Of a stretch of DNA of 64,000 nt, positions 10,909 to 62,158 are shown one piece after another. The position numbers and the translations under genes were made by a program. The notes beneath the pieces were generated by a model. That model saw only the letters and a program-made list of their open reading frames with translations. It had not been told where the DNA came from and ran no database searches. Each line of letters starts with the position of its first letter. The stretch's first letter is position 1. The DNA is from Nannobrachium achirus (Eukaryota > Chordata > Actinopteri > Myctophiformes > Myctophidae): the NCBI GenBank assembly GCA_963921795.1, contig OY997641.1, forward strand, positions 54,122,950 through 54,186,949. Direction: 5' to 3'.

Positions 10909-11526
10909 GGAGAATTCCGTGGTACAGTAAGTCGCTTTTTACCTTGTTTTCTTGTTATTTAGCCTCCAAAAAATAGGTCCAGGTGTTTTTTTTATTCCAA
11001 AAGGGCATTATTTCTATACACATTTCTGCCAAGCCGTGGCAACCTTATATACAGCCCACAACGGCAGCAGTGGGCATTATTGGGGGCATATTGCCCCTTA
11101 ATACACACACTAGAGCAAACATTGTACTTACGTCATTGTTGATGTCCAGGCTTAGAGTACATCATTGTTGTGAATTGGCCGTAAAACAATTCAGTCACGT
11201 TCTAAATCTAGACGTTTCTGCGTATTCTGCGTTTTATGGCAGAATGGGTGGAAAGAAGTAACCATTGTGATATTTATGTATGTTAGCTTGTCTATGTGTC
11301 TATATTAACAGCAGAGAAGTAGTGAAAAAGTGGATTTTAAAGCGATGGAAATGAGCGGTTTCACGTAATGCCCACTGCTGCCGTTGTGCCGGTATGCTGT
11401 ATATTGCCGCAGCTCAGCCAAAATGGACAATAATGCTTTTTTTGATAAAAAAAAAAACACCTGGATTTTTTTTAGGCCAAACAACTAGAAAACAAGGTAA
11501 AAAGCGATTTTACCACAGAATTCTCC
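10909..11526. mobile_element. Intronic inverted-repeat element shared by all three copies
   Basis: Ends GGAGAATTCCGTGGTA and TACCACAGAATTCTCC are inverted, and the inverted repeat extends over 100 bp (TTTTTACCTTGTTTTCTTGTT and its complement near 11490). Truncated homologues occupy the same intron in copy B (about 28331-28885) and copy C (about 60241-60800). The insertion therefore predates the gene duplications. Confidence 0.65.
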
Positions 11527-25401: not shown

Positions 25402-25411
25402 CACACACACT
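25327..25411. repeat. (CACG)n/(CA)n microsatellite
   Basis: CACG tetramers flanked by short CA runs. Just to its right begins the segment shared with 47915 onward, which is the visible edge of the tandem unit. Confidence 0.9.
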
Positions 25412-25427
25412 TTAGTTTTACTTGGTT

Positions 25428-25694
25428 CAGACATATCGTGAAAATAGCTCACGGTAAATGTCTCAATATCTCAAAATGTTTGCCTCTTTCTTAGGTGGCA
25501 ATTGACAATTTTGCCAATGTTTGAGCCTTTTTTTATGGTATAGTTTGTTGATTACCCTTGGAGCAATGACAAATTCAATTCAGAGTTATTGAAAAGGTCT
25601 TAAATTGACACTTTAGAATGCACATATACCCTGTTTAAACATACATACTGTATGTTGGTTTGTTTACTGTTGAGTGAGAAAACAATGTTGCACA
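25428..25694. repeat. Paralogous flank containing the empty DIRS target site
   Basis: Matches 47915-48159 followed directly by 56245-56281 (shared: CTCAAAATGTTTGCCTCTTT, GGCAATTGACAATTTTGCCA). At 25658-25669 the sequence GTTTGTTTACTG is uninterrupted. In the other unit the DIRS element lies between the first GTTT and GTTTACTG. Confidence 0.85.
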
Positions 25695-25698
25695 TTAA

Positions 25699-26035
25699 AG
25701 GACAACTTTGTTTTTTACAACAAGGGTTCATATTCTAGATTGTAATTAGAGAAAAGAAAAGATGAGTGTTAAAATGTTTTCAAATACTGCTTTCTATAGT
25801 TTTAGCTATTTTAACGATGTTGACTTCAGTTGTTGGGGGCATGCGTACAAGTGCCTAATTTGTATTTTTAGACACAATAAGCCCATTCCCAAGATGCTGT
25901 GCAATCTTTCATGGGCCAATGTGACATATGGAGGCTAGTAGTGTTACTGTAAATAGTAATAAAGAAATCACCGGCTTATTGTGTCTAAATAGAAATGCGT
26001 AGTGACTAAATATATAGCCACTACGCATTTATCTA
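25699..26035. mobile_element. TTAA-target element, left part
   Basis: TTAA at 25695-25698 precedes AGGACAACTTTG. The same element is found at 56282-57194, where both TTAA-flanked ends can be seen. Here the right end is not recognisable. Confidence 0.5.
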
Positions 26036-26788
26036 AGTTACAGTCACCAAAAGAGCAAAACTAAGCATGTCTTGGACCCAGCTCCAGAATACGATAATGA
26101 TACTAATATTATTTTATTCAAAACAGAACATTTCCCCCAAGAACATACACGTTATGACAGAATAATGGATAATATTATGATAATTAAGAATATACTAATT
26201 CTGACAGGGTAATAAAGACTAATGATGAATCATTCTGACTATAACGTTCACTAAACTTTAAGAAGGTTTCACCAAATTCTCACAAAGATGTCAATTACAC
26301 TACAACCCCAATTATCATTCAAGATTATATGGACATAGTGATTATGGTCCTAGTCAGCATTTCTTATTCTGATTCTGTGGTGGATGAATTACTCAAAAAA
26401 TTTACAAAATCTACAAAACTGCAATAAAAATATGAATAAAAAGGTTTAAAGAATATAGGTAGTGAGCTTGTTTTTTTTTTGTTTTTTTTATAGCTTAAGT
26501 ATAACATAGGGCTAATAAAAGATTAATGTGTATGTTTTGTAATGTTTTGTTTGCAGATGTAAGCAATCTGCTAAGTAATTTGACATTTTGAAAGTTTTTC
26601 AAATACATTTTTTTTTCTCAGAGATATAATGGAGTAGAAGTATAAAGGGCTGAAAAATGAACATACTTAAGTTAAGTAAAAGTACCTCACATTTGTATTT
26701 AAGTAGGCTACATTTTGAGGAAAGGCATAAAAAAAGTAATAACGTATTGGTAACATTAAAGTATACTGCAAGTATTCCACGTTTCACT

Positions 26789-28894
26789 TTAGTTGCCTTG
26801 CTTTTTTGGGACCTTCTTGGCCTTCTTAATCTCCTCCAGCAGTGTGGCCTTGGTGAGCTTCACATTCATGGCAGCTTTTCCCATCAGGTCAGAGATCATT
26901 TCTGGGCTGTACGGTCGTTGGAAGGTGGCATATTTCGTCTCATTCTCCTCAATACCCTTGCGGTCTGAAAAGTTTGAAGAGTTAGTGAGCAGTTGTAAGT
27001 CAACCCATCAAGAGGCCGATTCTAAAAATGTATTCTAAAGGCTATAGGTTTTCAGAAAAACCTATGTTGCTATGAGTGAATTGAATTGAATTAGCCTTTA
27101 TTGTCTCCAAAGATACATTTTTCTTGGCAATGGAGGTAACAGCGTACCAAAATACAAAAATACAAAACCACAAAAGACAAATACATACATGTACACCTAA
27201 AATTTCCCGCACCTATCATGACACCCCAGTGTGCAATATATCAAGAGCCTCTAGTCCAGTATCACAGCGTTGCACTCTCCCAGCATACAGGTTCCCGTCC
27301 CCCCAGCAATTCATCGTCTTTTATTGATGTGCTTATTGAGTGCTTGGATTGGCAGCGGAATAAAGGAAAACTTATATCTGTTACGCTTTGCATCTGATGA
27401 TCTGTACCATCAACCGGATGGCAGCAACTCATATTCTTTATGTAAGATGTGACTTGGGTCGGATGATTTTAAGGGCCTGCTTTAACGCTGTCCTATCAAA
27501 GATTTCTTTGAGAGAACATGGGGGCTGCATGCTAATGATTTTACCAGCCCTCTTGACTAGATTTTGCAGTTGGGATTTGAGTTTGACGGACAGATTTCCA
27601 AACCAGGTGGTGATACCATATCGGATGATAGATTCCATGCTTGCCCTATAGAACAGCAACATGATGTGTTTTGCCACCCCATGGACCCTGAACCCTCTCA
27701 GGAAGTGCATGCGCTGATTAAGGTGGGAACAAACAGACTTCGTTGGTAGCCTGATTTCAGACTCTGCGCTGGAACCAGTCCGCTCAGAGAGTGGGCGGGT
27801 CTATAGGCTGGAGCCAGGCAACTTGTTTGGCCCAGTTTAACTGAGAATCGAAACAAATACCTAAGAACAAGAAGTCACCTGCTCCACTCTCTAATTTAAA
27901 CAATTACAGCTCGTCCCTATTGGTGGAAAAAAGGCCCAAGTCGTGTGAGCGTTTTAAAGTTGAAATCACGTTGCTAGGCAAAAGTATGTCAGAGGTACGT
28001 GTGAGAGCAAAGTGTCACAGCGTGTGACGCACGTTTCTATACTAATACTAATTAGTATTTCTTCATAAAAAAGTATTACAGTTACCTCCACAGTTTTTCA
28101 TGTTGAACAGGGGCATGTGGATCACAGTTGGGATGTTGCCATCTCCTGGACACACATAGTATGGTTGAGGTGTGCCATCAGTGTTGCTGGGTATGGCAAC
28201 ACGTGGGAAAGGTATGCCCATCGACTTGGACATGTGTGAAGCTTGTTCCAGTGTCTGTATAATTAAGCAACAAAAGCAAAACCACCTAAGTCTTAATTCT
28301 TAAAAGAATATTTAAAATTGTTTATAATAGGCACCTTTTTACCTTGTTTTCTTGTTATTTAGCCTAAAAAAAATAGGTCCAGGTGTAGGGTTAGGGTTAG
28401 GGTTTTTTTATTCCAAAAAAGCATTATCATCCTTTTCGGCCAAGCCGTGGCAACCTTATACAGCCCACAACTGCAGCAGTGGGCATTATGCTAAACTGCT
28501 TATTTCCATCGCTTTAAAATCCACATTTTTGACTCATATCACGCCTTAATACACACACTAGAGCAATAACATTGTACTTACGTCATTGATGTTGTCCAGG
28601 CTTACATCATTGTTGTGAATTGGTCATAAAACAATTCAGTCACGTTCTACAAGCGAGTGAAGCGTTTTACGGTGGAATGGTATAGAAAGAAGTAACCATG
28701 GTGATATTTTTGTATGTTAGCTTGTCTATGTGTTTATTAACAGCAGAGAAGTAGAAAAAAAGTGGATTTTAAAGTGATGGAAATGAGCGGTTTTGCGTAA
28801 TGTCCACTGCTGCCGTTGTAGGCTGTATAAGGTTGAGGCCGAAATGGACAATAATGCTTTTGTAGATAAAAAGAATCACCTGGATATATTTTTT

Positions 28895-28958
<64 letters not shown>

Positions 28959-31900
28959 ACTCTCCAGTGATATGTGATGTGGCTTAGCATTAATAAAAGT
29001 ATATGGTATGGTATCAACAAGTATTTTGATTTCAGTGCGATTATGTTAACCAATTACCCAAAAATATATGTATTCAGAATTTATTCAAAAGTTCAAACAA
29101 CCTACTGTATAAAGTACAGTAAGTGCGCTACCTTTACAGGGTTCCCACTGCTGAAGTCGAGGGAGATGATGAGGTCGATGTCTCTCGCTTTTCTGAGGGA
29201 GGAGAAGTAGGGAGAGTTCAGCAAAATCCCAGCATCTTCATAGTCCCTCGTTTGTGTGTCCAGGATTTCGTCAGCTTCTTCAGCGATGTACAAAAATACA
29301 TTACAAAATACATTAACACTTCTTTACATAGCCAGAACATTTTGTTTGTGAGGATTCAGAATGGGGGTGTGGGTCAGACTTAGGTGCTCTATTGGAATGC
29401 TGCCCTTTTGGAATTATGGGAAACCTTGAATACACAAATTAATAAATGATTATGAACTGTGTTTGTCTCTGAGCTCTGATCCTACCTGGCAAGGCTGGTA
29501 TGTTGTACAAGAAGTTGTATGAGGTTCCCCACGTCCAATGCATTGCACATTTTATGGTGCTGCAGATTATCTCCAACCATACTGAAATTAGAAGTACACT
29601 GTACATTGGTACGAAACAAGTAATACTTATAACCATATTCAGACTACAGTAGGCTATACTACCATAGGTCAATGCCATTAATGAAATACTATATGACCAG
29701 AGCACTTTCATAATACACAGACTTTATTACTATTATTGCAGTAATCTTTCAAAGGTTTATTTTGAGATGCATGGATTACAGTGCAAAACACAGAATACTG
29801 TGGTATTATGGAATAATACATCATTGTGTTATTTTCTGATCACTGTGGATTGTGCTAAAGGAAAGGTGCCAGAAAAGGCACCCAGACTTTTTTACAAGCA
29901 GGGGCGATCAATCTGTCAGAGAGATATTGATTCGCATTGGATTAGTATCTAATCTAAAAGTTGGGGATGGAAATTCCCATCCCCAAAAAGTTTAAATGTA
30001 GAATCAGGGAACAGCACCACTCACTGGTAGCAGTGACACAGTCTTTGGTCAAGTCGTGGAACCAGTCCAGGAAACATTCAGAGACATTCAGCGTGTGATC
30101 CTTGAGCTTGTCCATAATCATTTCCAAGGGCATCTCATCGTTTGTGTCTAAAAACACTTTCTTGCCTGTCCTGTCCACCTTGCCTATAGAAGAGATGGGA
30201 GCACAGTACCTTCCAGATTTATTGGAACAGCAAGGAATGTTTGGATTTGATATCAGAGGACCAATATAATCAATATCAATGAGTGCATTGTGTACACCGC
30301 CGGCACCTATATAGGCATACTGTAGGCTATAGTGTTTTAATGTGGGTTGAGACAGTTTGTGTCACCCGATACACACGTTATCATTGTGAGCACAAATATG
30401 TAATTATTTTATAGTACAAGTTGAACTGAACTGAACTAAATGTGAGACAGTGGCGATAACTGTTTTTTGCACCTGTCCGTGTGTCTGTGTCTGTGCACAT
30501 TTAATTTTGCACATGGAATGATCAACAGCATCATTGCTTGCGCACTTACAGTCGGCCAATGAAGACAACGTATCTCTTTTCATTTCAAAACGGCTTTATG
30601 TTTTTCCCAGAGTGACTTGAGAGAGAGAGTGGTGTCACCGAGGGGTCAGAAAATGAACTGCGTCACGTGACCCATGTTTCAGCTCTAAAGTGACAACCGG
30701 GAGATTAAATAACATTGGTTTCAAAAGAAGCGTCGCGAATATCGGCATTTTTAGGTAAATACACAACATGCCAACCATTTTAAAGTATTGTACAGGGATA
30801 ACTAAAGTCTCTTTAATATTTACTTTAAACTATTGCCAAAAAACTATGTAAAATAACATTAGACGCTGAGCTAGGACCACACATATGGGGTCCTCGGTAT
30901 CATTGGGGGGGATTAATTCTCATAGTGATTTTTGGGTAGGTATACACCTCTAGTGATAGGAAAAATGTGATAGCATTGCATCTGTGGTAGCTTTCTCTGT
31001 GCTATCTATCCTTTTATAACAACATGCCAAAAAACTGTTTTCAAACTCCGAATGGAATATTCTACTTCAAACTGATGATTCTCCCTTAGTATTGACCCTC
31101 TGTCTTTGAAAAATGGCAAGGATAAAGCTCAGACTACATGTTTTTCATTGTACGTTGACATGCACGTCCTCAGTCATTGTAGTTCATTGTCAGACTGCAT
31201 CTGTTCTACAGCTTGTTGGAAAACTTAAAGTGGCAAAAGAGGAAGATGAACGATGAATACTTTGAAAGAATAGTGAACTAGTCTAATGCTTTAACGTCCC
31301 ATTTGATGAATGCCAAGCAGCCTAACCTTAATTGATGTAACGTCAACAAATGTAAGAGGAAACTCAATACAATGACACTGGTGAATTTGCATCCATCAAT
31401 GGGAAGGTCTGTTAATCATGAATAATGACTTCTTCATTTCTTACAGGTTGTTTAGGACATTATAGCCTCAATGTAAAGGTCAGGCCACACAAATAATGTT
31501 CCCCTGGAGACTGTTGTGTTGCTGCCCATGAGCAAACACAGACTGAGACAGATATGGGGTCATCAGTATCATTTGGGGGGAATGATTCTCATAGTGACTT
31601 TTGGGAAGGTACTGTATATACATACCTAGTACTAGGAAATATGTGATAGCCTTGCATCTGGGGTAGCTTTCTGTGTTATCACTTCATTTATAACCACATG
31701 CCAAAACACAGTTTTCAAAATCCAAATGGAACATTCTACTTCAAACTGATGATTCTCCCTTTAGTATTGAAAAATGGCAAGGATAAAGCTTAGACTACAT
31801 GTTTTTCAAAAAGTTGTTAAAAGTATCATCTCTAGAAATGGTACATATTACAGGCAGTGACAACATACTGTAGTGACTAGATTACATTACATAAGATGTA

Positions 31901-43835: not shown

Positions 43836-44336
43836 TTTGCTTTTTAAATAGACTTTATTGAAAAATTTGCAGGTTTACAATCATTTTAAGCAGTCAAAGC
43901 AGTCATATGAATACAGTCATACATTAAAGTAATTACACAATTATAATATACTATGTAAGGGCATTACTTTCTTTTTTGTTTAACCCTCACCTTTTTCCTT
44001 CTTTTTTTCTTTTTTTTTTTACATCGAAGCATAAAAAGCATACAAAACAAGAAAATAGAAATATAATAAATATAGAAAAATAGAAATTGTTTTTTTTTCT
44101 TCTTTTTTACAAGTTCAAAAGGTGCCATGGTTTCAGTTTGTTATGTTTAGAGTCCAGTGTTCGTTGCCTTCTGAGCTCAGTTTTTACTTGTTTGAAGACC
44201 ACCTCCCCAGAAATGGTCTCCTGGTGGATGACCATGGCACTCCTAGTGTTCCACAATTTATTCACAACAGTGCAAATGATAGACCAAAATAATTCTTGGT
44301 CCATGGCGGACATGAACCTTTCTCCAGTCTCCACAC
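43836..44336 (-). mobile_element. L1/Tx1-like LINE 3' fragment
   Basis: The minus-strand frame 44107-44334 reads FWSIICTVVNKLWNTRSAMV and TELRRQRTLDSKHNKLKPWH, a C-terminal tail typical of Tx1/L1-group ORF2. An AATAAA-like 3' end (CAATAAAGTCTATTTAAAAA) lies near 43845-43864. Only the last part of the element is present. Confidence 0.5.
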
Positions 44337-44351
44337 TGCTGTCCGGGTGTG

Positions 44352-44953
44352 CAGGGGCGTCAATTGGGTATGACAGGGGTATGCAGCTGCCATACCCTGG
44401 GTCCAGGGGGGAAAATAAAAGTTACTTTTAAATATAAGTCCATGAATGTCTCTTTGTCTATCTATTATTTTATTGTTAAATAAATTATTGTGTTGTTAAA
44501 TTACAAAATAACTACAAATGCAAAATGTAACAAAATGGTCACTTTAACAAGGTATTATAATTATATTCTCCACTCTTTTATTCTCCCCATCTTGACAAAA
44601 TGGTATATTCCAGGTTCCGCGAGTCAGCTGCACAGGTGCAATTCATTATTGTTAATTGTGGCACGTTTACTAACATGCAAGTTTAGCTGCACTTGAACAA
44701 CCGTTCCAGGCTGCCTATCCAGCCCAAGAAACCGTAGAAACCTGTGTAAAAAACGGACAAAACTCGTTTTTTTTTTCAGACATTGTGAAAATAGCCGATC
44801 TACATGCTCACAACGCCTCACAGCGTGAGGCGTTGTGAGCATGTAGATCTGCTATTTTCACAATAGAACCGTGTTATACAACATGTAATGCCTCTTTTCC
44901 ATGAGGACTCCCATCTTTGCCATACCCCAGCTTTTGTTGAACTGACGCCACTG
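44352..44953. mobile_element. hAT element, 602 bp, with 8-bp target duplication
   Basis: Ends CAGGGGCGTCAATTG and GAACTGACGCCACTG; target duplication CGGGTGTG at 44344-44351 and 44954-44961. It contains the GATCTACATGCTCACAACGC hairpin at about 44787-44866. It interrupts a coding fragment whose flanks join in frame. A shorter relative sits at 52538-52867. Confidence 0.85.
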
Positions 44954-47570: not shown

Positions 47571-48178
47571 TTGACCGCAACAAATTCCTTAGGTCTCCAT
47601 GCTATGAGGGCTACTGGGGTCTGCTGGCGAACCTGGGCATTCCAGCCTAATAGATCCCATGGACATACTGTAAGCAGGAAAGTTACCCTCTATTATTTGG
47701 CGCAGAGTTGTCCTTCAAGAGGGGAGCAGTGGTGTAATCTTATCTCACAGTGAAATGGTTTAGACTGCATGCTCCAGCAGAAGTTATTTCCCACTAGAAA
47801 AGTGGTTCTCAACCTTTTCAGACCGTGACCCCCCAAAATAATCATATTTGAACTGGGGACCGGCGGACCCCCAACCTTGACAAGCAATTGGAATTTAGGA
47901 GTTGAGGCATTCACTTTTGTTTGACTTGGTTCAGGCATATTGTGAAAATAGCTCACTGTAAATTGTTCAAGATCTCAAAATGTTTGCCTCTTTCTTAGGT
48001 GGCAATTGACAATTTTGCCAATGTTTGAGCCTTTTTTTTAATAGTATAGTTTGTTGATTACCCTTGTAGCAATGACAAATTAATTTCAGAGGCATTAAAA
48101 AGGTCTTAAATTGTCACTTTAGAAATGTACAGATACCCTGTTTAAACGTACATATGTTGGTTTATTGTCATACCTCCA

Positions 48179-48357
48179 GACAAGGTCCCCCTATGGGAAA
48201 CAGCGCCATCTGGCGGTGCAACAGAGTAAAACTCATGTACTCCCGTACGAGAAATATTATTTGTCGGCAGGGCTGTCAATCACAAAACGAGGGCACCGCC
48301 CCCGAGTGTATATAAGCCCTGTGGGCTCACATAACTTCCTCTTCCGCACCTCTGCGC
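48179..48357. repeat. DIRS left inverted terminal repeat
   Basis: GACAAGGTCCCCCTATGGGA through CGCACCTCTGCGC is almost identical to the complement of 56018-56199, apart from small differences near the inner end. It carries the TATA motif noted separately. Confidence 0.92.
48308..48315 (+). promoter_or_regulatory. TATA motif in DIRS left terminal repeat
   Basis: GTATATAAG lies about 290 bp before the gag start codon and is a candidate core promoter for the genomic RNA. The same motif in the right repeat points inward on the minus strand. Confidence 0.5.
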
Positions 48358-48603
48358 TACAGCAACTAGAGTGTCGAACTCAGCCAAAAAGTTTTAATTC
48401 TGTAAAGTATAGCCTAAAGCGACGGCTAGGAAGTCGGCCACTGGCCTTTATAGATTATCTCCCGTACGTTAGAATCTACTTCTATTTTCTTCCTACAGTT
48501 CGGTGTTCTTCGCCTCGCTTTGAGTCTTTTGCTTCTTCTCTGTACCTTCTGCCACGTGTTTCCCTGCCTTAGCTTAGCTTCGCCTAGCTTCGGTTAGCTC
48601 ACG

Positions 48604-49797
48604 ATGGCGGATCGTCGGCCCACGGTTAGCAACCTGCAAGCCAGGGTACCGAAGAAGTGCGGCCTTCCCAGCTGCAGAGGCCTCATCGCCAATGAAGATA
48701 CACACTCGTTCTGCATTGTCTGCATGGGGGTAGGACACGCCTTGGCTTCTCTGTCCCCTCCGGCCCCGGCCACGGGGGTGAACTGTGCTCACTGCGTGCA
48801 GTACGACGTTCCAGCCCTCGAGGCCCGCCATGAGATCGCCAGCGCTGGTTACGGCCTTCGCTCCACGGTCTCCGCCGGATCCCTCCCAGACACCTCTCCT
48901 CGTGTGCCGGACAGCGCTGTACGCCACAGCGCTGCTTCTCGCCACGTGGTCAGGCCTCCAGCGGCCTCGCCCTCAGCTAGCTTCGGTAGCCCCGAGGCTA
49001 GCGGGTCTGTTGCCCCTGCTATCCCTGCTGTTTCTCCGACGGGCTCGACTGGTGCCGTGCCCAAGAAGAGAACATGCAAGACCGCCCACGTTGTTCCACC
49101 GCCAGCTACAACTTGGGCCGTCCCCCCCAAAGAATTCCACCCTCTTGTCGTCGGAGATATTCCGCTCTCCTTCTCCGTCCCCCAGCTCCGGGCTATGCGG
49201 CCACCTAGCCCCGTCTCCTGGCATGCTAGCGACGGAGACGAACCGGAGCAAGAGGACTACGACATGGACGAGGTGGATACGGAGGGTGAGTACTCGGAGG
49301 AAGACGAGGCCACGCTCCCCTCCGGCCAGGGCGGAGGCGCGGCCAGGGTGGTTCCTCATGCCGAGGCTTCCACCTCCGCCGTGTCCTCCCCAACCCCTTC
49401 TGCCTCTCTCCCCCCTTCCATGCCGGCTGGGGCGAGAGGGGCAGCGGCACAAGACCCAGACTCCATCCCCATGGACGAGCTCTCGGTGCTGGAACGTGCT
49501 ACCATCCGTTGCGGCCTGGAGCTGCCGCTCGGAGACGCGCCACTCGGACCACGGGCTAGAGTTCCCCTCCTAGGCCAGGATGTGGAAGCTTCCCCCCCGC
49601 CACGAATGGAAAAGCTCCCAATGGTCCCAGGCTTTGCAGAGGCCCTGCATTCAACCTGGGCCACACACAAGGACCCCCCCCAAGCTCCCCTTCTTGGTCG
49701 ATTGCCGCGACGCAGAGAAGGAGGGAATCCCCTTGTGCCCTCCGATGGACAAACTGATGGCTCAGTCCCTCGTCGGGAGCATCAAGCCAGGCCATGA
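48604..49797 (+). pseudogene. DIRS ORF1 (gag-like), N-terminal part up to a frameshift
   Basis: Starts MADRRPTVSNLQ. A Cys/His cluster lies at residues 19-45 (C19, C24, H34, C37, C40, H45), as in vertebrate DIRS gag N-termini. A Pro/Ala/Ser-rich linker and an acidic block follow (about residues 209-237, EDYDMDEVDTEGEYSEEDEA). The block VPGFAEALHSTWATHKDPP is typical, but after the C8 run at 49674-49681 this frame is no longer gag-like and ends at 49797. The continuation is in the +1 frame. Confidence 0.8.
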
Positions 49798-50530
49798 GCG
49801 GACCGGTCCTGGAGGCCGCGGTCCCTTCAACTTGTCCGTGGGGAAGAAGCCTCCTGGGTTTGCCATCCCTTACGATGACAAGCAGTCGTCCAGGGTCAGG
49901 AACTCGTACAGATCCTCCGCGCTGGCAGCGCGCACGATGAACGCCACCCAGCTGCTGCTCTCCTCCACCAGGCACCTCCTTAGCGAGATGCGGGAGGTGC
50001 CTGACGAGACGGTGGAGGAGATGGACAAGTCACTTCGCATGCTGATGGACCTGAATGTCCACGCCATCGAGTGGCTTGGACACGGTATGGATTATTGCAT
50101 CCAGGCGGAACGTGCCAGGTGGCTTGATAAGGTGAAGTGTCCTGGCACATCCGGAGAGGAGACCGAGAAGGTCCTGCAGGACCTCCCCGGCCACCCTACC
50201 TCCCTCATGGGCGGCGGACTGGATCTTCTCCGCCAGGAGGTGGCGGATAAAAAGATCACTCTGGAACTCCTGGAGGCCACAACGGACCCCCAGGCGTTCA
50301 AGAAGGATAAGAGACAGGGACGGAGCAAGGCCCCTGGTCAGGCTGACAGGGGGCGCTCTTCTTCCAAGCAGGGGAAACAAAACAATCCCCCTAGGACCCC
50401 CTCTTCTTCCTCCGCGGGACCCCCTCGCACTGCAGCGGGGGCTCAGGCCCGCTCTCAATCCCGCCACCCTCCCAAGCACGGGATACCGGCCAGCTCCCAC
50501 AAAGCCCGTGGGAAGCCGCCGCGAAAGTGA
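49682..50530 (+). pseudogene. DIRS ORF1, C-terminal part in the +1 frame
   Basis: After the C8 tract the +1 frame reads KLPFLVDCRDAEKEGIPLCP and MDKLMAQSLVG, then a helical segment (about 49980-50100, VEEMDKSLRMLMDLNVHAIE). It ends in a basic tail (KKDKRQGRSKAPGQADRGRS) before TGA at 50528. This is the second half of gag. One extra C in the run is the simplest cause. A programmed +1 shift is possible but unproven. Confidence 0.75.
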
Positions 50531-51716
50531 CACTGGACTCGGGCGGGGTCCCCCTGAAAATTCAGGGGACCCCCCCCTGGCAAGCGCAGACGTTTGGACA
50601 TATATACATACATATAGACAAAAATTCTTATGCCAAGAAAGTATTGTTTCTGTCTCCTCTGTGCTCTCCTCCAGTGCCTGTATTAAAAAGTGTGTTGATA
50701 AAACAATGCCTGTTTATTTCAAACCCATCTGCCTTAGTACAGACGACCCCATTTTGCATGAATCTAGCCAGCGTAGAGAAGTCCAGGCTGGATTTTCTTT
50801 CTACTCAGAAAATATCGCTTTCTCCAGTCACGCAGACAGGGTACAAGCAGAATATTTCTCATTGCAAAATGTTCCCAGACAAGCTAATTCCTATTCACAG
50901 TGGTATAGTCTCACGAGTGTGCAATACCCCTCTGTCTCCACCGAGCGGCACTGTTATGCCGGCTCTAGCTCAGGACAGGAGTTTGGTCTTAGCGTCAGGG
51001 AAGAAGCCAGCACATATAAACAACACCCAGGGTCGGCCTCGTCTTCCCGTTCGGAAGCATATAAAGGCCTTAGATCAGGTTATAAGCGTAAACACAACTC
51101 CCCGAGCCGGGGATTATGTTACTTATGCGATAAACCCTGTCCCCCGGGCTCCACGCTATGTGCCGCCTGTATTATTAACAAGCGAGGCTTCTCGGAGGTC
51201 ACGTGTCCTTCTCCCACCGGATACGGAAATGAGCGCACCGGAAACGGAAGCGCTCCTTCCGTCGGTGTACCCGCGCCTTCCGGCCCGGCGTCTAGCGGAG
51301 ACGGATACGTGCCCGGATACGGAACCTCTCGGTCCCGTCCTTTCTCTCCCTCTCGGCCCAGTAGTCCCGCTCAGGCGGTACAACCCCAAGGCTTCTCCGT
51401 TGCTCAGCAACACGTTAGCACAGTGTGCAGAGCAATGGAAGCGTTGCAATCCGAATCACTGGGTGTTTCGGACAGTGACACGGGGCTACAGACTACAGTT
51501 CGCGGAAATACCCTCCCTATCCAGCAAGGTTATTTACACTCGAGCCCGCGGCTTGAAAGCAGATGCCTTGAGGGAGGAGATAAGCTCACTATTGCGCAAG
51601 GGCGCTATAGTGGAGTTATCACGCGACCAGAGCCGTTTAGGCTTCTGGAGCCGTTATTTTCTGGTTCAGAAAAAAGGGGGGGGGGCTGCGTCCGATTATG
51701 GACTTACGTGCTCTAA
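50508..51716 (+). CDS. Overlapping ORF in DIRS with CxxC..CxxC motif
   Basis: This frame is open for 402 codons while the frame that leads into RT is open over the same DNA. At about 51114-51170 it reads LCYLCDKPCPPGSTLCAACI, a zinc-knuckle-like pair of CxxC motifs that resembles the Cys cluster of gag. The other frame reads proline-rich sequence here. It may be a real accessory ORF, a displaced gag-like segment or chance. No function is claimed. Confidence 0.35.
   Translation: MGSRRESDTGLGRGPPENSGDPPLASADVWTYIHTYRQKFLCQESIVSVSSVLSSSACIKKCVDKTMPVYFKPICLSTDDPILHESSQRREVQAGFSFYSENIAFSSHADRVQAEYFSLQNVPRQANSYSQWYSLTSVQYPSVSTERHCYAGSSSGQEFGLSVREEASTYKQHPGSASSSRSEAYKGLRSGYKRKHNSPSRGLCYLCDKPCPPGSTLCAACIINKRGFSEVTCPSPTGYGNERTGNGSAPSVGVPAPSGPASSGDGYVPGYGTSRSRPFSPSRPSSPAQAVQPQGFSVAQQHVSTVCRAMEALQSESLGVSDSDTGLQTTVRGNTLPIQQGYLHSSPRLESRCLEGGDKLTIAQGRYSGVITRPEPFRLLEPLFSGSEKRGGGCVRLWTYVL
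50527..51690 (+). pseudogene. DIRS ORF2, N-terminal part up to RT (frame 1)
   Basis: Open from the end of ORF1. From about 51400 it carries the sequence that precedes the RT palm in DIRS elements (AQCAEQWKRCNPNHWVFRTV; ALREEISSLLRKGAIVELS; GFWSRYFLVQKKGG). At the G10 run (51676-51685) the coding frame moves to +1, where LRPIMDLRALN follows. No ATG clearly marks the start. The first 280 codons have no recognisable domain. Confidence 0.7.
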
Positions 51717-52212
51717 ACAAGCACTTGAAAAAGTTCAAATTCAGGATGTTGACGTCAGAGTCACTGATGAAATCAGTGAGACAGGGGGATTTCCACTGCT
51801 CAGTGGATCTGAGGGACGCTTATCAGCACATCCTCATTTATCCCCCACACAGGAAGTTCCTGCGGTTCGCCTTCGAGGGGCGCCTGTACGAGTACACGGT
51901 CCTCCCTTTCGGTCTTTCACTGAGCCCTCGGGTTTTCGTGAAAGTGACCGAGGCAGCCATTGCTCCACTGAGGCATCAGGGAGTCAGACTGGCGAACTAC
52001 ATAGACGATTGGATGATTTCCGCCGCCTCCTGCTCAGAAGCGGCGCGCCATACCAATCTGGTGTTATCACACCTGAAGGCCTTGGGTTTCAACGTCAATT
52101 TTGGCAAAAGCATGTTGTCACCCTCCCAGCAGATTTCCTTTATAGGAATATCTCTGGACACGGCCACAATGACCGCCCGCCTCTCCCCGGAGAGGGTGGA
52201 CAGGTTTCTGAC
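51686..52212 (+). pseudogene. DIRS reverse transcriptase palm, interrupted by hAT
   Basis: The frame reads LRPIMDLRALNKHLKKFKF, FHCSVDLRDAYQHILIYPP, LPFGLSLSPRVFVKV and YIDDWM (catalytic Asp pair at 52004-52009). The thumb-side block FNVNFGKSMLSPSQQISFIG follows. The frame is cut at 52212 by the hAT element and resumes at 53501 in another frame, as expected from a 1288-bp insertion. Confidence 0.9.
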
Positions 52213-53492
52213 TAGGCCTGGGGCGGTATCGACATTTTGTTACCGCGATTACCGTCTTCCCATTTACCGCCGGTACTGCGGTAATTACCGCACCCCCGTA
52301 TCTATTAATTAAGGTTCGGCGATAAGCCAAAATATTGCAATCATCTTCCCAAAAGTCGCCTCCCCACAGCCTGACTGCCCGAGTTATACTTCTCCGTACA
52401 GCACAGCGGGTCTGGCTTTAAAAGGAGCAGATCTACAAGCTCAGAACGCGTCGCGGATGCGACGTGTTTTAGATCTGTGCCCTGTCGGGTTACCATAGTA
52501 ACATAGGCTCCGTACTTTTCACACAGCTGCGTGTGAACAGGGGCGTCAATTGGGTATGGCAGGGATATGCAGCTGCCTTACACTGGGTCCAGGGGGGAAG
52601 ATAAAAGTTAGTTCTAAATGTAAATCCATAAATGTCTCTTTGTCTATCTGTACTGGTTATTATGTTGGTAAATTACAGTAAAATAACTACAAATGCAAAA
52701 TGTAACAAAATGGTCACTTTAACAAGGTATTATAATTATATTATAGGTATATATATAATTATATATTATATGTACTTCTTAAAATAAATATATCATGCCT
52801 GTTAAAGGTATGGCAACACCAGTCATGTTCTTGCCATACCTTAGCTTTTTCTGAACTGACGCTACTGTGTGTGAACAAACCAGAAGAGAGAGACGGGTAG
52901 TCAGGATCGTGTAGGCTACAGTGATTCTGTAAACTCCATAACTCTATGGTAAACTCACGTCTCAAAACGCAGTGATTGAGTGCTGATACAGGTTTTAGTT
53001 ACAAGACTTGACAGAAAAGGTTATAAAATCGCCGACGGGGCTCATCGCGCGTCGCGGTTGAAAAAGTAAAATAGTTTCATTTTCGGCTTTAGTCCACGCG
53101 GCCCGCGCTCCGCTCGTAATCCGTATGAATAAAAAAAGAAACAGCCACAACACAAGGTATGTATTAACATACTTGTGTCGTGGATTACAGAGAAAGTTTA
53201 CTCTGTTCCGTACTCCCCTACGACGCTGCTGCTGCAGGGCAGCAGCCAGTGGCCACTCGGACAGTCACGAGTGACGTACACTGTATGTGGCTTCCAAACT
53301 GTGGTACACGGCCCAGAGCAGAGCGGCATGGAGCGCATGCGGTCCTCGCTTCTCCCCTGTTTTAAAACTCGCTTGTTTTCAATAAAAAAATATACTATTT
53401 TTGTCTTTTTTGACCGCGGTAAGGACCATGACACCGCGGTAGGCCTCGGTTTACCGTGGTACGGCGGTACGGCGGTTACCGCCCCAACCCTA
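52213..53492. mobile_element. hAT element, 1280 bp, inside the DIRS RT gene
   Basis: TTTCTGAC is duplicated at 52205-52212 and 53493-53500. Ends are TAGGCCTGGGGCGGTA and, inverted, TAGGGTTGGGGCGGTA. Both terminal regions are rich in CGGTA/TACCG words. No transposase ORF. It carries a second hAT at 52538-52867. Confidence 0.9.
52538..52867. mobile_element. hAT element, 330 bp, nested in the 1280-bp hAT
   Basis: Ends CAGGGGCGTCAATTG and GAACTGACGCTACTG match the family at 44352-44953. Flanks CGTGTGAA and TGTGTGAA form an 8-bp target duplication with one mismatch. It is an internally deleted relative of the 602-bp copy. Confidence 0.8.
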
Positions 53493-53500
53493 TTTCTGAC

Positions 53501-54590
53501 TTGTCTCAGCTCCTTCCAACTGAACCAGGTGGTCAGGTACAAGGAGTGCATGAAGTTGGCTGGGCTGATGGCGTCAGCAGTACAACTTCTGCGTCTGGGC
53601 AGGTTTCATATGAGACCTTTCCAGCGGTGGTCACTGGCGCTCAGGATTCCTCCCCTGCAAGGGTACAGGAAGGTGAAAGTCAGCCAGGTCTGCATGAACG
53701 CTCTGGTCCCATGGAGGGACCAGGCGTTGTTGACGTGTGGGGTCTCCATGGGCGAAGTGGTGTCACGCAAGGTGATCACCACGGACGCCAGCCGTTCGGG
53801 GTGGGGTGCCACCCACGAGGGGCGTTCGGCCAGGGGTCTGTGGACCCCGGCCATGTTGGAGCACCACATCAACTATCTGGAGTTAATGGCGATCTACTTG
53901 GCGCTCAAGCATTTCGAGCCATTTCTCCAAGGTTGTCATGTTCTGGTCAGGACGGACAACACGGCGGCCCTGTATTACATCAACAAACAGGGCGGCCTCG
54001 CCTCGCGCGTGCTGGATCAGCTGGCGCGCGAGATAACCCTCTGGTGCTTGCCTCGTCTGAGGTCCATCAGAGCCTCCCATGTCCCGGGCCTTCAGAACGG
54101 CGGCGCCGATCTGTTGTCCAGGGGGGAGCCTCGTTACGAGGATTGGTCTCTCCACCCTGCGGTGGTGAGACAGATCTTCTCCAGGTTCGGTCAACCTCGA
54201 GTGGATCTCTTTGCTTCCCAGGAGAACGCGAAGTGCCCCCTTTACTTCTCAGTGAGGGGGCCTTCTCCTCTGGGGTTGGACGCGTTTGCTTACGAATGGC
54301 CACGAGGTCTTCTCTACGCGTTTCCACCCCTGGAACTGATCCTTCCCACGCTGGAGAGGATCAGATGTTCCAACCAGGAGGTTCTTCTGGTGACACCATC
54401 CAGGGGAGTGTGGAGGTCTCTGATCACCCCACTGCTCTCTCAACCCCCTTGGCGGCTCCCCGTGCACAGGGATCTGCTGCGTCAGGCAGGGGACGAGATA
54501 TTCCATCCAGACCCACGGGGCCTAGACCTGTGGGTTTGGCCCGTGAGAGGGAGAACCTGCTCGCAGCAGGCTTCTCACCGACGGTTGTAG
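53501..54590 (+). pseudogene. DIRS RT end, RNase H and methylase-like region
   Basis: After the hAT the RT connection resumes (LNQVVRYKECMKLAGLMASA). RNase H follows: TTDASRSGWGATHEG (Asp at 53784-53786), INYLELMAIYLALKHF (Glu), VRTDNTAALYYINKQGG (Asp) and SHVPGLQNGGADLLSRG (Asp). The next block (RVDLFASQENAKCPLYFS; FAYEWPRGLLYAFPPLELI) is the region usually called DAM-methylase-like in DIRS elements. It ends at TAG 54588-54590, overlapping the recombinase frame. No stop interrupts it in this copy. Confidence 0.85.
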
Positions 54591-55591
54591 CCACTATTCA
54601 GAGTGCTAGAGCCCCCTCTACTAGGGCTGTGTATGATGGAAGGTGGAGTGCCTTTCTGGACTGGTGTGAGCTACAGGAGCCACCTGTGGTGGCTCATTTA
54701 GCTTCGGCCCAGAGGGTGTTAGATTTCCTGCAGGACCGCCTGGACCTTGGTCTGGCGTTCTCTACGCTGAGGGGATATTTAGCGGCTATTGATGCCTGCC
54801 ACCTGGGGGTGGCAGGTATAAGCCTTTCTAAAATCCCTGAGGTGGTCCAGTTCATGCATGGTGTTGACCATTTAAGACCTGTGACCAGAGCCTTGTTTCC
54901 TGTTTGGGATCTACAAGTGGTTCTCGTGGGCCTTTGCAAGGCACCCTTTGAACCGATTGGGAGGACCTCTTTGAAACATTTAAGTTTCAAAACAGCTCTT
55001 TTGCTTGCCCTGTCTACGGCTAAGCGTGTGAGCGATCTTCATGCGCTCTCTGTGAGCCCTGATTGTATGAGGTTTCTCAATAATGACTCTAGGGTTCTTC
55101 TCAAACCTCATTTGAGTTTTGTTCCTAAGAACCGAATGGTCCCGAAGGAACCTGTTGAGTTGACGGCTTTCCATCCTCCTCCGTTTGCATCGGAGGAGGA
55201 TAGGCGTCTTCATTGTCTTTGTCCAGTTAGAGCCCTGAAGGCCTACTGTGACAGGACGGTGGACAGCAGGTCTACTTCTCAGCTTTTCGTGGTCTTGAAT
55301 GCCCGTCAGCGAAAAGCGGTGTCCAAACCCACTCTGTCGAGATGGCTTGTGGATGCAATTAGGTTGGCTTACACCCGGTCTGGGTCTGAAGTGCCGGTGG
55401 CACTTAAGGCCCACAGTACTAGGGGTGTGTCTACCTCTTGGGCTTTGTCCAAAGGGGTCTCCATTGAGGAGATTTGTGCAGCGGCGAATTGGTCTTCGCC
55501 GTCCACCTTTGCGACCTACTATCACCTGGACGTTGCGCCTTCTGCTATGGCGCATACGGTTCTGGGTGCTGCTGCCCTTCCTACTATGTAG
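54416..55591 (+). CDS. DIRS tyrosine recombinase ORF
   Basis: The open frame covers the whole recombinase. The N-terminal SAM-like core domain begins near 54540 (ENLLAAGFSPTVVATIQSAR; AVYDGRWSAFLDWCELQEPP). The catalytic part has LSTAKRVSDL (Arg at 55024-55026), HSTRG (His at 55412-55414, Arg at 55421-55423) and TFATYYHLDV (Tyr near 55517-55522), giving the R..HxxR..Y set of the lambda-integrase superfamily. Known role in DIRS elements: joining the circular DNA intermediate to the target without cut staggering. The start is uncertain because no good ATG precedes the domain. Expression probably depends on overlap with the RT ORF. It is the only DIRS gene here that appears undamaged. Confidence 0.85.
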   Translation, partial: VSDHPTALSTPLAAPRAQGSAASGRGRDIPSRPTGPRPVGLARERENLLAAGFSPTVVATIQSARAPSTRAVYDGRWSAFLDWCELQEPPVVAHLASAQRVLDFLQDRLDLGLAFSTLRGYLAAIDACHLGVAGISLSKIPEVVQFMHGVDHLRPVTRALFPVWDLQVVLVGLCKAPFEPIGRTSLKHLSFKTALLLALSTAKRVSDLHALSVSPDCMRFLNNDSRVLLKPHLSFVPKNRMVPKEPVELTAFHPPPFASEEDRRLHCLCPVRALKAYCDRTVDSRSTSQLFVVLNARQRKAVSKPTLSRWLVDAIRLAYTRSGSEVPVALKAHSTRGVSTSWALSKGVSIEEICAAANWSSPSTFATYYHLDVAPSAMAHTVLGAAALPTM

Positions 55592-55894
55592 TGGGGCGGC
55601 GCTCTCCCCTTCCTGAAGCAGTATGCTACTGTCTCCAGGATACATGGGGGGGGACCCTGAATTTTCCCTTATATTACTGCAGTTTTTTAAGGCAGACCTG
55701 TGTCTGCCCTGGCTTAGTGCATAAGGCAGGCCTCGGTCTGTCAGGGTCTTTTTCTGTCTGTACACGCCCAGGCCCTGTGGGTCTGGGTCGGATCAGTCCT
55801 AAAGGGGTCACGTCGGTTGACGGGACCTCCTCCCGGATACGGTCGGTGTGCACGACAGTCTTGTCGGTTCATGGCTTCTCGGGGAGTGTATGAG

Positions 55895-55987
55895 TCCCAT
55901 AGGGGGACCTTGTCTGGAGGTATGACAATAAACGATTAGGTTTCGAACGAAACCATGTTTATTTAATACCGGAGGACAAGGTCCCCC
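55895..55987. repeat. DIRS internal complementary region (circle-junction copy)
   Basis: The left part (TCCCATAGGGGGACCTTGTC, TGGAGGTATGACAAT) is the complement of the element's left end. The right part (GATTAGGTTTCGAACGAAAC, GGAGGACAAGGTCCCCC) is the complement of its right end. They are joined through AAAC at 55930-55933. The region is thus the complement of the two ends fused through one GTTT, the template used to complete DIRS ends in the accepted replication model. Confidence 0.93.
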
Positions 55988-56017
55988 GAATAAAGCCCCT
56001 CGGTTCGCTAGTTGCGG

Positions 56018-56199
56018 GCGCAGAGGTGCGGCTTTAGAGGAAGTTATGTGAGCCCACAGGGCTTATATACACTCGGGGGCGGTGCCCTCGTTTTGTGATT
56101 GACAGCCCTGCCGACAAATAATATTTCTCGTACGGGAGTACATGAGTTTTACTCTGTTGCACCGCCAGATGGCGCTGTTTCCCATAGGGGGACCTTGTC
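56018..56199. repeat. DIRS right inverted terminal repeat
   Basis: Complement of 48179-48357, including GGCTTATATACACTCG, which places a TATA motif on the minus strand pointing into the element. Confidence 0.92.
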
Positions 56200-56281
56200 C
56201 TCCGGTATTAAATAAACATGGTTTCGTTCGAAACCTAATCGTTTGTTTACTGTTGAGTGAGAAAACAATGTTGCACATTAA

Positions 56282-56909
56282 AAGACAACTTTTTCTTTTT
56301 TTTACAACAAGGGTTCATATTCTAGATTGTAATTAGAGAAAGGAAAAGATGAGTGTTAAAATGTTTTCATTTACTGCTTTTTATAGTTTTAGCTATTTTA
56401 ACGATGTTATTTCAGTGGTTGGGGCATGCGTACAAGTGCCTAATATGTATTTTTAGATACAATAAGCCCATTCCCAAGATTGAAGATGCTGTGCAATCTT
56501 TCATGGGCCAATGATGGGGGCTAGTAGTGTTACTGTAAATAGTAATAAAGAAATCACCTGATTATTGTGTCTAAAAAGACATTTAGCCATTGTACGCATG
56601 CCCCCACCCACTGAAATCAAAATCGCTAAAATGGTTAAAACGAAAGAAAGCAGTAAATGAAAACATTTTAATACTCATCTTTTCTTTTCTCTGATTACAA
56701 TAAACTAAAATATGAACCCTTGTTGTAAAAAATCACACCCGTGTGAACTGAGCGGTGGTCGTGGAGGCTGCGCAACAGCAAAACAAATATATATATACCT
56801 GTATATATATATATAATAAAAAATATTAAAACAATATTAAACAAAATATTAATAATAAAATGCATGTCACTCAGGCCGCCACTGGTATCCATCCATCATC
56901 CATCCGTGT

Positions 56910-58007: not shown

Positions 58008-58699
58008 TTACAGTCCCCAAAAGAGCAAAACTAAGCATGTCTTGGAATCACCCAGCTCCGGAATACGATAATGATACTAATCTTATTTTATTCAAAACAG
58101 AACATTTCCCCCAAGAACATACATGTTATGACAAAATGATGAATCATTCTGACTATAATGATCACTAAACTTTAAGAAGGTTTCACCAATTCTCACAAAG
58201 ATGTCAATTACACTACAACCCCAATTATCATTCAAGATTATATGGACATAGTGATTATGGTCCTAGTCTGCATTTCTTATTCTGATTCTTTGGTGGATGA
58301 ATTACTCAAAACATGTTCAAAATCTACAAAGCTAGCAATAAAAATATGAATAAAAAGGTTTAAAGAATATAGGTGTTTTTTTATAGCTTAAGTATAACAT
58401 AGCCAGGGCTAATGAAAGATTAATGTGTATGTTTTGTAATGTTTTGTTTGCAGATGTAAGCAATCTGCTAAGTAATTTGACATTTTGAAAGTTTTCAAAT
58501 ACATTTTTGAAAAGTACAATATTTACCTCAGAGATATAATGGAGTAGAAGCATAAAGGGCTGAAAAATGAATATACTTAAGTTAAGTAAAAGTACCTCAC
58601 ATTTGTATTTAAGTAGGCTACATTTTGAGGAAAGGCATAAAAAAAGTAATAAATGTATTGGTAACATTAAAGTATACTGCAAGTATTCCACGTTTCACT

Positions 58700-60801
58700 T
58701 TAGTTGCCTTGCTTTTTTGGGACCTTCTTGGCCTTCTTAATCTCCTCCAGCAGTGTGGCCTTGGTGAGCTTCACATTCATGGCGGCTTTTCCCATCAGGT
58801 CAGAGATCATTTCTGGGCTGTACGGTAGTTTGAAGGTGGCATATTTCTTCTCATTCTCCTCAATACCCTTGCGGTCTGAAAAGTTTGAAGAGTTAGTGAG
58901 CAGTTGTAAATGAACCCATCAAGAGGCCGATTCTAAAAATGTATTCTAAATGCTATAGGTTTTCAGAAATACCTGTTGCTATGAGTGAATTGAATTGAAT
59001 TAGCCTTTATTGTCTCCGAAGATAATTTTTTCTTGGCAATGGAGGTAACAGCGTACCAAAATACAAAAATACAAAACCACAAAAGACAAATACATACATA
59101 TACACCTAAAATTTCCCGCACCTATCATGACACCCCAGTGTGCAATAAGAGCCTCTAGTCCAGTATCACAGCGTTGCACTCTCCCAGCATACAGGTTAAC
59201 GTCCCCCCAGCAATTCATCGTCTTTTATTGATGCGCTTATTGAGTGCTTGGATTGACAACGGAACAAAGGAGAACTTATATCTGTTATGCTTTGCATCTG
59301 ATGATCTGTACCATCAACCGGATGGCAGCAACTCATATTCTTTATGTAAGATGTGACTTGGGTCGCGGATGATTTTAAGGGCCTGCTTTAACGCTGTCCT
59401 ATCAAAGATTTCTTTGAGAGAACATGGGGGCTGCATGCTAATGATTTTACCAGCCCTCTTGACTAGATTTTGCAGTTGGGATTTGAGTTTGACGGACAGA
59501 TTTCCAAACCAGGTGGTGATACCATATCGGATGATAGATTCCATGCTTGCCCTATAGAACAGCAACATGATGTTTTTTGCCACCCCATGGACCCTGAACC
59601 CTCTCAGGAAGTGCATGCGCTGATTAAGCTGGGAACAAACAGACTTCGTTGGTAGCCTGATTTCAGACTCTGCGCTGGAACCAGTCCGCTCAGAGAGTGG
59701 GCGGGTCTATGGGCTGGAGCCAGGCAACTTGTTTGGCCCAGTTTAACTGAGAATCGAAACAAATACCTAAGAACAAGAAGTCACCTGCTCCACTCTCTAA
59801 TTTAAACAATTACAGCTCGTCCCTATTGGTGGAAAAAAGGCCCAAGTCGTGTGAGCGTTTTAAAGTTGAAATCACGTTGCTAGGCAAAAGTATGTCAGAG
59901 GTAGGCTACGTGTGAGAGCAAAGTGTCACAGCGTGTGACGCACGTTTCTATACTAATACTAATTAGTATTTCTTCATAGAAAAGTATTACAGTTACCTCC
60001 ACAGTTTTTCATGTTGAACAGGGGCATGTGGATCACAGTTGGGATGTTGCCATCTCCTGGACACACATGGTAGGGTTGTGGTGTGCCATCAGCGTTGCCG
60101 GGTAGGGCAACACGTGGGAAAGGTATGCCCATCGACTTGGACATGTGTGAAGCTTGTTCCAGTGTCTGTATAATTAAGCAACAAAAGCAAAACCACCTAA
60201 GTCTTAATTCTTAAAAGAATATTTAAAATTGTTTATAATAGTCACCTTTTTACCTTGTTTTCTTGTTAGTTAGCCTCCAAAAAATAGGTCCAGGTGTTTT
60301 TTTATTCCAAAAAAGCATTATCATCCTTTTCGGCCAAGCCGTAGCAACCTTATACAGCCCACAACGGCAGCAGTGGGCATTATGCTAAACTGCTTATTTC
60401 CTTTGCTTTAAAATCCACATTTTTGACTCATATCGCCCCTAATACACACACTAGAGCAATAACATTGTACTTATGTCACTGATGTTGTCCAGGCTTACAT
60501 CATTGTTGTGAATTGGTCGTAAAACAATTCAGTCACGTTCTAAATGAGATTTCGAAAGCGTGTGTGCGTTTTACGGTGGAATGGGTAGAAATAAGTAACC
60601 ATGGTGATATTTTTGTATGTTAGCTTGTCTATGTGTTTATTACCAGCAGAGAAGTAGCGAAAATGTGGATTTTAAAGCGATGGAATTAAGCTGTTTTGCT
60701 TAATGCCCACTGCTGCCGTTGTAGGCTGTATAAGGTTGAGGCCAAAATGGACAATAATGCTTTTTTAGATAAAAAAAAAAACACCTGGATTTATTTATTT
60801 T

Positions 60802-60851
<50 letters not shown>

Positions 60852-62158
60852 ACTCTCCAATATGTGATGTGGCTTAGCATTAATAAAAGTATGGTATGGT
60901 ATCAACAAGTATTTTGATTTCAGTGTGATTATGCTAGTCAATTACCCAACGATCTAAGTATTCAGATTTTATTCAAAAGTTCAAACAACCTACTGTATAC
61001 AGTACAGTAAGTGCGCTACCTCTACAGGGTTCCCACTGCTGAAGTCGAGGGAGATAATGAGGTCGATGTCTCTCGCTTTTCGGAGGGCGGAGAAGTAGGG
61101 AGAGTTCAGCAAAATCCCAGCATCTTCATAGTCCCTCGTTTTTGCGTCCAGGTTTTCATCAGCTTCTTCAGCGATATACAAAAATACATTACAAAATACA
61201 TTAACACTTCTTTACATAGCCAGAACATTTTGTTTGTGAGGATTCAGAATGGGGGTGGGGGTCAGACTTTGGTGCTCTATTGGAATGCTGCCCTTTTGGA
61301 ATTATGGGAAACCTTGAATACACAGATTAATCAATAATTAAGAACTGTGATTTGTGTCAGAGCTCTGATCGTACCTTGCAAGCCTGGCATGTTGTACAGG
61401 AAGTTGTACTTGGTTCCCCACGTCCAATGCATTGCACATTTTATGGTGCTCCAGATTATCTCCAACCATACTGAAATTAGAAGTACACTGTACATTGGTA
61501 TGAAACAAGTAATACTTACAACCATAATTCAGAGCATACTACCATAGGTCAATGCCATTAATGAAATACTGCACTTTCATAATACGGTAAATACATCGAC
61601 GATACAGACTTTATTACTATTATTGCGGTCATCTTTCAAAGGTTTATTTTGAAATGCATCTGGTGCTTCTTAAAATGGATGCATGGATTACAGTGCCAAA
61701 CACAGAATACTGTGGTATTATGGAATAATACATCATTGTGTTATTTTCTGATCACTGTGGATTGTGCTAAATGGAAAAGGTGCCAGAAAAGGCACCCAGA
61801 CTTTTTACAAGCAGGGGCGATCCATCATCGGAGAGATTGATCTGCATTCGATTAGTATCTAATCTAAACGTTTAGAGTTGATTTGTTATTACACTGTTAA
61901 CTCAACTGAAAACATTTAAATGACTCAACAAATTACTTATTATAAAAATGAAAATTCCCATCTCCAAAAAGTCTAACTGTAGAATGAGGGAACAGCACCA
62001 CTCACTGTTAACCGTGACACAGTCTTTGTCATGGAACCAGTCCAGGAAATGTTCAGCAACATTCAGCATGTGATCCTTGAGCTTGTCCATAATCATTTCC
62101 AAAGGCATCTCATCGTTTGTGTCTAAAAACACTTTCTTGCCTGTCCTGTCCACCTTGC
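58700..62158 (-). CDS. pla2g4c: Cytosolic phospholipase A2 gamma-like, copy C (3' part; continues past window)
   Basis: Five minus-strand exons correspond to exons 9-13 of copy B: 62006-62158, 61375-61470, 61020-61165, 59997-60165 and 58700-58875 (TAA). All are open, phases agree and splice sites are GT..AG. The catalytic Asp block [13 protein letters not shown] and DLIISLDFS are kept. Differences from B: exon 9 is 6 bp shorter (WFHDKDC against WFHDLTKDC), exon 11 starts EADENLDAKTRDYE, and the last exon reads YATFKLPYS. Exons 1-8 would lie right of 64000. The intron sequence at 63800-64000 still matches copy B (30280-30590), so the gene continues. Whether the whole gene is intact cannot be seen. 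Confidence 0.85.
58984..59655 (-). mobile_element. L2/CR1-like LINE fragment in copy C
   Basis: Same fragment and intron position as 27072-27748. This version keeps the frame further ([20 protein letters not shown]) and is a better guide to the family. The 3' end has ATTCAATTCAATTCA on the minus strand. Confidence 0.75.
60804..60849. repeat. (GA)n microsatellite
   Basis: About 23 units; same site as 28897-28954 in copy B. Confidence 0.95.

Follow-up and report, generated by a model that had tools for sequence, protein, structure and literature searches.

The DNA between positions 48160 and 56243 of the window, as we call the whole 64,000-nucleotide stretch of the Nannobrachium achirus genome that was analysed, is an ordinary DIRS-type element, a copy of a DIRS1-like tyrosine-recombinase retrotransposon, which with very high probability reached its site by recombination between the GTT of its own circle junction and a GTT of the host, no host DNA being duplicated beyond these three bases. 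An uninterrupted copy of the target and the relatives of the element elsewhere in the genome together indicate that insertion takes place at GTT, usually followed by T, and that no other host letters are duplicated. The arrangement is textbook DIRS design and illustrates well, in a natural setting, a kind of element and a mechanism already known; direct evidence of the pre-insertion state helps in testing this mechanism. In this one genome there are several hundred near-identical copies (the internal complementary region has 379 exact matches, among which a few may represent right ends located at matching targets), some of them lying in repeats with empty sister copies, so that the core can be placed at GTT by an asymmetry at position 4 and a target preference can be measured.

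The internal complementary region (ICR, 55895–55987) is the reverse complement of the right end, the core and the left end of the element. The left terminus (48160–48198) is identical at 39 of 39 positions to the reverse complement of 55895–55933 and the right terminus (56187–56243) at 57 of 57 positions to that of 55931–55987 (58 if the fourth T is included), the two parts overlapping on the AAC circle-junction trinucleotide at 55931–55933. The initial annotation had recognized in this region the complement of CCTAATC + GTTT + ATTGTC and had seen GTTT on both sides of the element; indeed, GACAATAAACGATTAGG is found at 55924–55940, CCTAATC + GTTT at 56234–56244 and GTTT + ATTGTCATACC at 48160–48174. 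The terminal repeats are inverted, not direct, the conserved left (48179–48342) and right (56036–56199) copies agreeing at 164 of 164 positions; membership of the Ngaro or PAT groups was rejected since it requires split direct repeats. On the strength of the left/right asymmetry among sibling copies, the left copy of the core is placed at 48160–48162, the T at 48163 being read as the element's own, and the right copy at 56241–56243, the T at 56244 being read as the target's own base. All these features are given on the forward strand, save the right inverted terminal repeat (reverse strand) and the ICR with its AAC, to which no strand is assigned.

The alignment of the inverted terminal repeats leaves a right extension of 26 bp (56218–56243, forward strand) with a palindrome of 7-bp arms, which could constitute a putative binding site. 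Its GGTTTCG..CGAAACC becomes GGTTCCG..CGGAACC in the main subfamily, the two arms changing in step; the seven arm pairs are kept in 29 of 29 right-end rows, chosen by similarity and by the search pattern, and one pair is broken in 3 of 11 ICR rows. The circle junction (reverse complement of 55926–55970) displays a further inverted pair, AATAAAC and GTTTATT, separated by about 23 bases once the ends are joined, which offers two possible GTT cores; the sibling searches were built on the outer one. Three matches to a junction 17-mer in viral contigs were dismissed as due to chance, their neighbours not continuing the element.

The coding part, all on the forward strand, begins with a candidate ORF1 in gag position (48604–50530), made up of two overlapping frames of the ORF list (48604–49797 and 49580–50530) that gave no Pfam match and are called gag by position only. 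A piece of reverse transcriptase follows at 51698–52312 (Pfam RVT_1, E 3e-20, profile positions 17–204 of 205), its frame continuing into an inserted transposon, and then RNase H (RT_RNaseH, E 7e-8), which shares the pol stretch 53175–54590 with a weakly methyltransferase-like segment (Dam, E 0.0092, 16.1 bits, below the curated cut-off of 28.1). The last frame, 53456–55591, overlaps pol and encodes the tyrosine recombinase that takes the place of a DDE integrase, as judged from matches to PHROG integrases (E 6e-6 and 2e-5), a Pfam Phage_integrase match below cut-off (E 7.6e-5) and, by eye, an HSTR motif and a C-terminal tyrosine in the translation; no DDE integrase domain was detected by Pfam in the six element frames scanned. 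An AlphaFold model of the recombinase alone was too poor for use (mean pLDDT 38), no relatives of the recombinase were confirmed in viral_contigs and genome_contigs, and neither the search of solved structures nor that of Rfam gave a match. The insertion that splits pol (52213–53492, no strand assigned), which we take to be hAT-like, is 1280 bp long and is flanked by an 8-bp duplication, TTTCTGAC, at 52205–52212 and 53493–53500, so that the whole occupies 52205–53500; a related sequence (84%) lies at 44332–44567. Without this secondary insertion the element measures 6796 bp.

An unoccupied copy of the target is present within the window at 25408–25996, and its sequence is the one expected before a GTT-GTT recombination. 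The left host flank (47912–48159) is homologous to 25408–25657 and the right one (56244–56582) to 25661–25996, all on the forward strand, and the joined flanks (47912–48159 plus 56241–56582) align to the empty copy with 89.7% identity and 27 gap positions in 603, but the alignment is continuous across the insertion point, GTT 25658–25660, the nearest gap being five bases long and located 7 bases before GTTT. The homology of the flanks supposed by the initial annotation is thereby borne out, as is the occurrence of GTTTGTTTACTG in its “paralogous unit” at 25658–25669, the same sequence being found at 56241–56252. Homology between the empty site and the circle junction deduced from the ICR is confined to the four bases GTTT and extends no further in either direction; at least four shared bases are encountered at 1.3%, and at least three at 3.7%, of the window positions outside the element. 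Both the empty site and the sibling counts given below thus show no target duplication beyond the junction trinucleotide. On the other hand, the co-occurrence of junction, filled site and empty site, presented initially as unusual, loses this character, because an ICR record is what defines DIRS1-like elements and because the paralogous unit, far from being special to the locus, belongs to a tandem duplication and consists of a repeat whose sequence is dispersed in the genome: of 1360 first-look candidates, 40 matches were scored, and these include the two copies present in the window.

The tandem duplication is seen in the match between 26038–29962 and 58008–61872, with 4.3% substitutions. 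The duplicated flanks of the element differ from the empty copy by 7.7% on the left (18/233) and 4.3% on the right (14/325), whereas the comparisons of the inverted terminal repeats and of the ICR yield not a single difference over 260 aligned positions (33 bases enter into two comparisons); the element accordingly inserted after the duplication, on the assumption, made by the model, that these sequences were identical at the time of insertion. Related duplication units are found at 9467–13377, 26038–29962 and 58008–61872, with pieces 78–91% identical. The 20 frames scanned for host genes around the target gave one weak ALKBH8_N match, below cut-off, which is also the sole match in the ten frames of one duplication unit. 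A long imperfect palindrome occupies 56298–56732 in the right host flank, the copy at 25.4 kb matching the first arm only, in direct order.

The window cannot by itself separate a GTT from a GTTT core, because its target reads GTTTGTTT; the distinction is drawn from sibling copies counted in the 1.66-Gb genome that holds the window. The four bases GTTT, taken by the initial annotation as the exchanged core, are found at the right end in 12 of 12 copies of the subfamily to which the window element belongs (CCTAATC), that element being one of the 12 (identical flanks being collapsed and five further places not read), and the best 30 right ends of the DNA search comprise 27 with GTTT and one each with GTTG, GTTC and GTTA. 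Among the distinct right flanks of these best matches GTTT is present in 26 of 29 and GTT in 29 of 29, counts that are biased towards GTT, the last three bases of the query being GTT and scoring having been confined to the best 40 of 1316 candidates; three more diverged right ends read GTTT, GATT (L035) and GCTT (L038).

Genome-wide counts were made with exact patterns and concern the exact-match copies of the main subfamily (right end CCTATAC); for right ends they cover core base 1 and position 4. Here GTT is followed by A, C or G in 39 right ends (21 C, 16 A and 2 G), while GTTT followed by C, G or T occurs in 241 (GTTTA ends not being counted), which puts T at right position 4 at ~86% or somewhat more, the background after GTT in the window being 36% (710/1948). 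A first core base other than G is seen in three right ends, A in all of them, and one of 40 sampled GTTTB places is a mutated ICR (L130), which is inside the 69-flank set and excluded from the later set of 39. On the left the situation is different: left ends and ICRs together yield 0 exact matches genome-wide for GTT then A, C or G before ATT, as opposed to 223 exact GTTT left ends, and this asymmetry at position 4 is highly significant (Fisher P 4e-11). Furthermore, left flanks found without requiring the core read GTTT|ATT in 15 of 15 cases, the altered L089 apart, and both elements with a right GTTV and a readable left end (L083 and L085) have GTTT on the left. A left end was sought in 20 regions and obtained from 14; that of L089 is altered, without GTTTATT, and in the other five (L077, L080, L084, L086 and L090) the left end was not found.

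The asymmetry implies that the left T derives from the circle and the right fourth base from the target. Were the core four bases long, variation would be expected at both ends or at neither, and despite the uniform GTTT of the window's subfamily such a core is improbable; in the GTTC case (L085/L061), 3 of 12 listed repeat contexts read ACCACTGTTCT at the target, the rest differing, a result that is no more than compatible with a GTTC target, and in the GTTG case the joined-flank search gave no empty copy. The sequence comparisons are best accounted for by an exchanged core of GTT, with T favoured at the next position, the GATT, GCTT, A-first and L089 exceptions being likely due to mutation. 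This core agrees with the published 3-bp junction. Thus, of the proposal that a circle carrying GTTT recombined with a GTTT in the target, the circle and the absence of extra duplication (in the window pair as in the siblings) stand, while the core was one base too long; likewise, the expectation of a uniform core among sibling copies holds, these exceptions apart, for GTT and for the left GTTT but not for the fourth base on the right.

Since the filled site exceeds the empty one by a single extra GTT(T), as a short duplication would also give, the element might instead have entered by a cut-and-fill insertion with a 3–4-bp target-site duplication produced by a DDE integrase or an endonuclease. 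To this we attach hardly any credence: duplications vary with the target, whereas the same letters are present at the ICR junction (29 of 29 ICR rows among the matches listed) and in the siblings, whose left flanks carry GTTT in 15 of 15 cases, and it is the recombinase frame, not a DDE integrase domain, that the scanned frames contain. It is, on the other hand, very improbable that the 25.4-kb copy was formerly occupied and lost its element when the two GTTs recombined in reverse. Such an excision, carried out by the same recombinase, would leave identical letters behind; nevertheless, the inverted terminal repeats and ICR are too alike for an insertion predating the duplication, and past occupation is not needed to explain the further copies of the repeat, both arguments being indirect.

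By analogy with published models, the missing ends of the reverse-transcribed DNA would be rebuilt on the ICR as template and the rebuilt DNA closed into a circle with the junction CCTAATC-GTT-TATTGTC. The element's recombinase would then join the GTT of this junction to a GTT in host DNA, the junction T going to the left side and the target's fourth base staying on the right, with no host duplication beyond GTT. In the present case the target was the GTTTGTTTACTG stretch of the dispersed repeat within the tandem duplication, the sister copy at 25.4 kb having kept the pre-insertion sequence, and the hAT-like element inserted in pol at a later time.

DIRS-1 of Dictyostelium discoideum was reportedly the subject of a study by Cappello et al. 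in 1985. As far as can be judged from passages of PMC5633606, this element has, like the one described here, inverted terminal repeats, an internal circle-junction sequence and a recombinase in the place of an integrase, whereas DIRS1-2 of the same organism, as tabulated in PMC3266345, has TTA termini and a conserved inverted terminal repeat of 304 bp, compared to GTT and 164 bp here. The latter paper (Piednoel et al. 2011) describes ICRs, a 3-bp circular junction, a right extension and integration without target duplication, and in its Table 3 three fish elements, GaDIRS1 and GaDIRS2 of stickleback and TnDIRS1a of Tetraodon, begin with GTT and have AAC as circular junction, as found here, although the 3′ end of TnDIRS1a is given as GAT. 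GaDIRS2 combines its GTT ends and AAC junction with ICRs of 38–57 and a 26-bp right extension. More generally, the fish DIRS1-like elements of that source share with the window element an extension on the right only (26–27 versus 26 here), ICRs of 36–46 on the left and 56–57 on the right (39 and 57 here), inverted terminal repeats of which a short part is divergent and the long part after it conserved, a recombinase frame that overlaps pol, and a stated model of integration at the 3-bp junction without target duplication; they differ in the conserved inverted terminal repeat (144–148 versus 164 bp) and in length (5322–5931 versus 6796 bp, secondary insertion excluded). Passages of PMC5941688, PMC5633606 and PMC9210276 fit the model, and PMC6387122 yielded nothing on target letters.

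The only part that may be new, and a modest point, is an extended target preference. A is found at position −7 before GTT in 25 of 35 distinct left flanks against a background of 30% (P 4e-7), that is in 9 of the first 15 and in 16 of the further 20 (P 5e-6), with the qualification that the pattern used for the latter asked for GTTT and that the 35 flanks include two pairs with a common host repeat. T at +5 occurs in 30 of 39 cases, the background among C/G/T being 48% (P 2e-4). A preference for T at right +12, seen in 17 of the first 29 flanks, was dropped after only 14 were obtained, by subtraction, in the next 40. These preferences are drawn from 35 left and 68 right flanks picked by similarity and list position and not at random, and we consider it somewhat more probable than the contrary that the target is asymmetric and extends over ~12 bases, A(−7)...GTT-T-T, and that dispersed repeats fitting it are hit again at the same nucleotide. 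If so, a rule of DIRS target selection would exist beyond the published trinucleotide. Among the open-licence papers listed by the literature searches, none deals, in its title or the start of its abstract, with a longer target consensus for DIRS elements or with their empty sites, and the A(−7) preference appears to be unreported in the open-licence papers searched.

As to repeated insertion, at least two further DIRS copies have inserted in the host repeat of the window element. A right end (L047) and a left end (L078) together reveal a base-exact insertion in this repeat, the empty sequence being found in the window at 25672–25690 and 56255–56273, and L047 and L124, the latter placed from its 41-base right flank alone, occupy one identical place of the repeat, 23 bases away from the window element and in opposite orientation to it. 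Three further copies belonging to two subfamilies (L048, L098 and L113) share, as judged by their right flanks, one insertion point, exact to the nucleotide, in a different host repeat (GTTTTCACTAGTTTAA); in the case of L098 and L113, element and flank may have been copied together.
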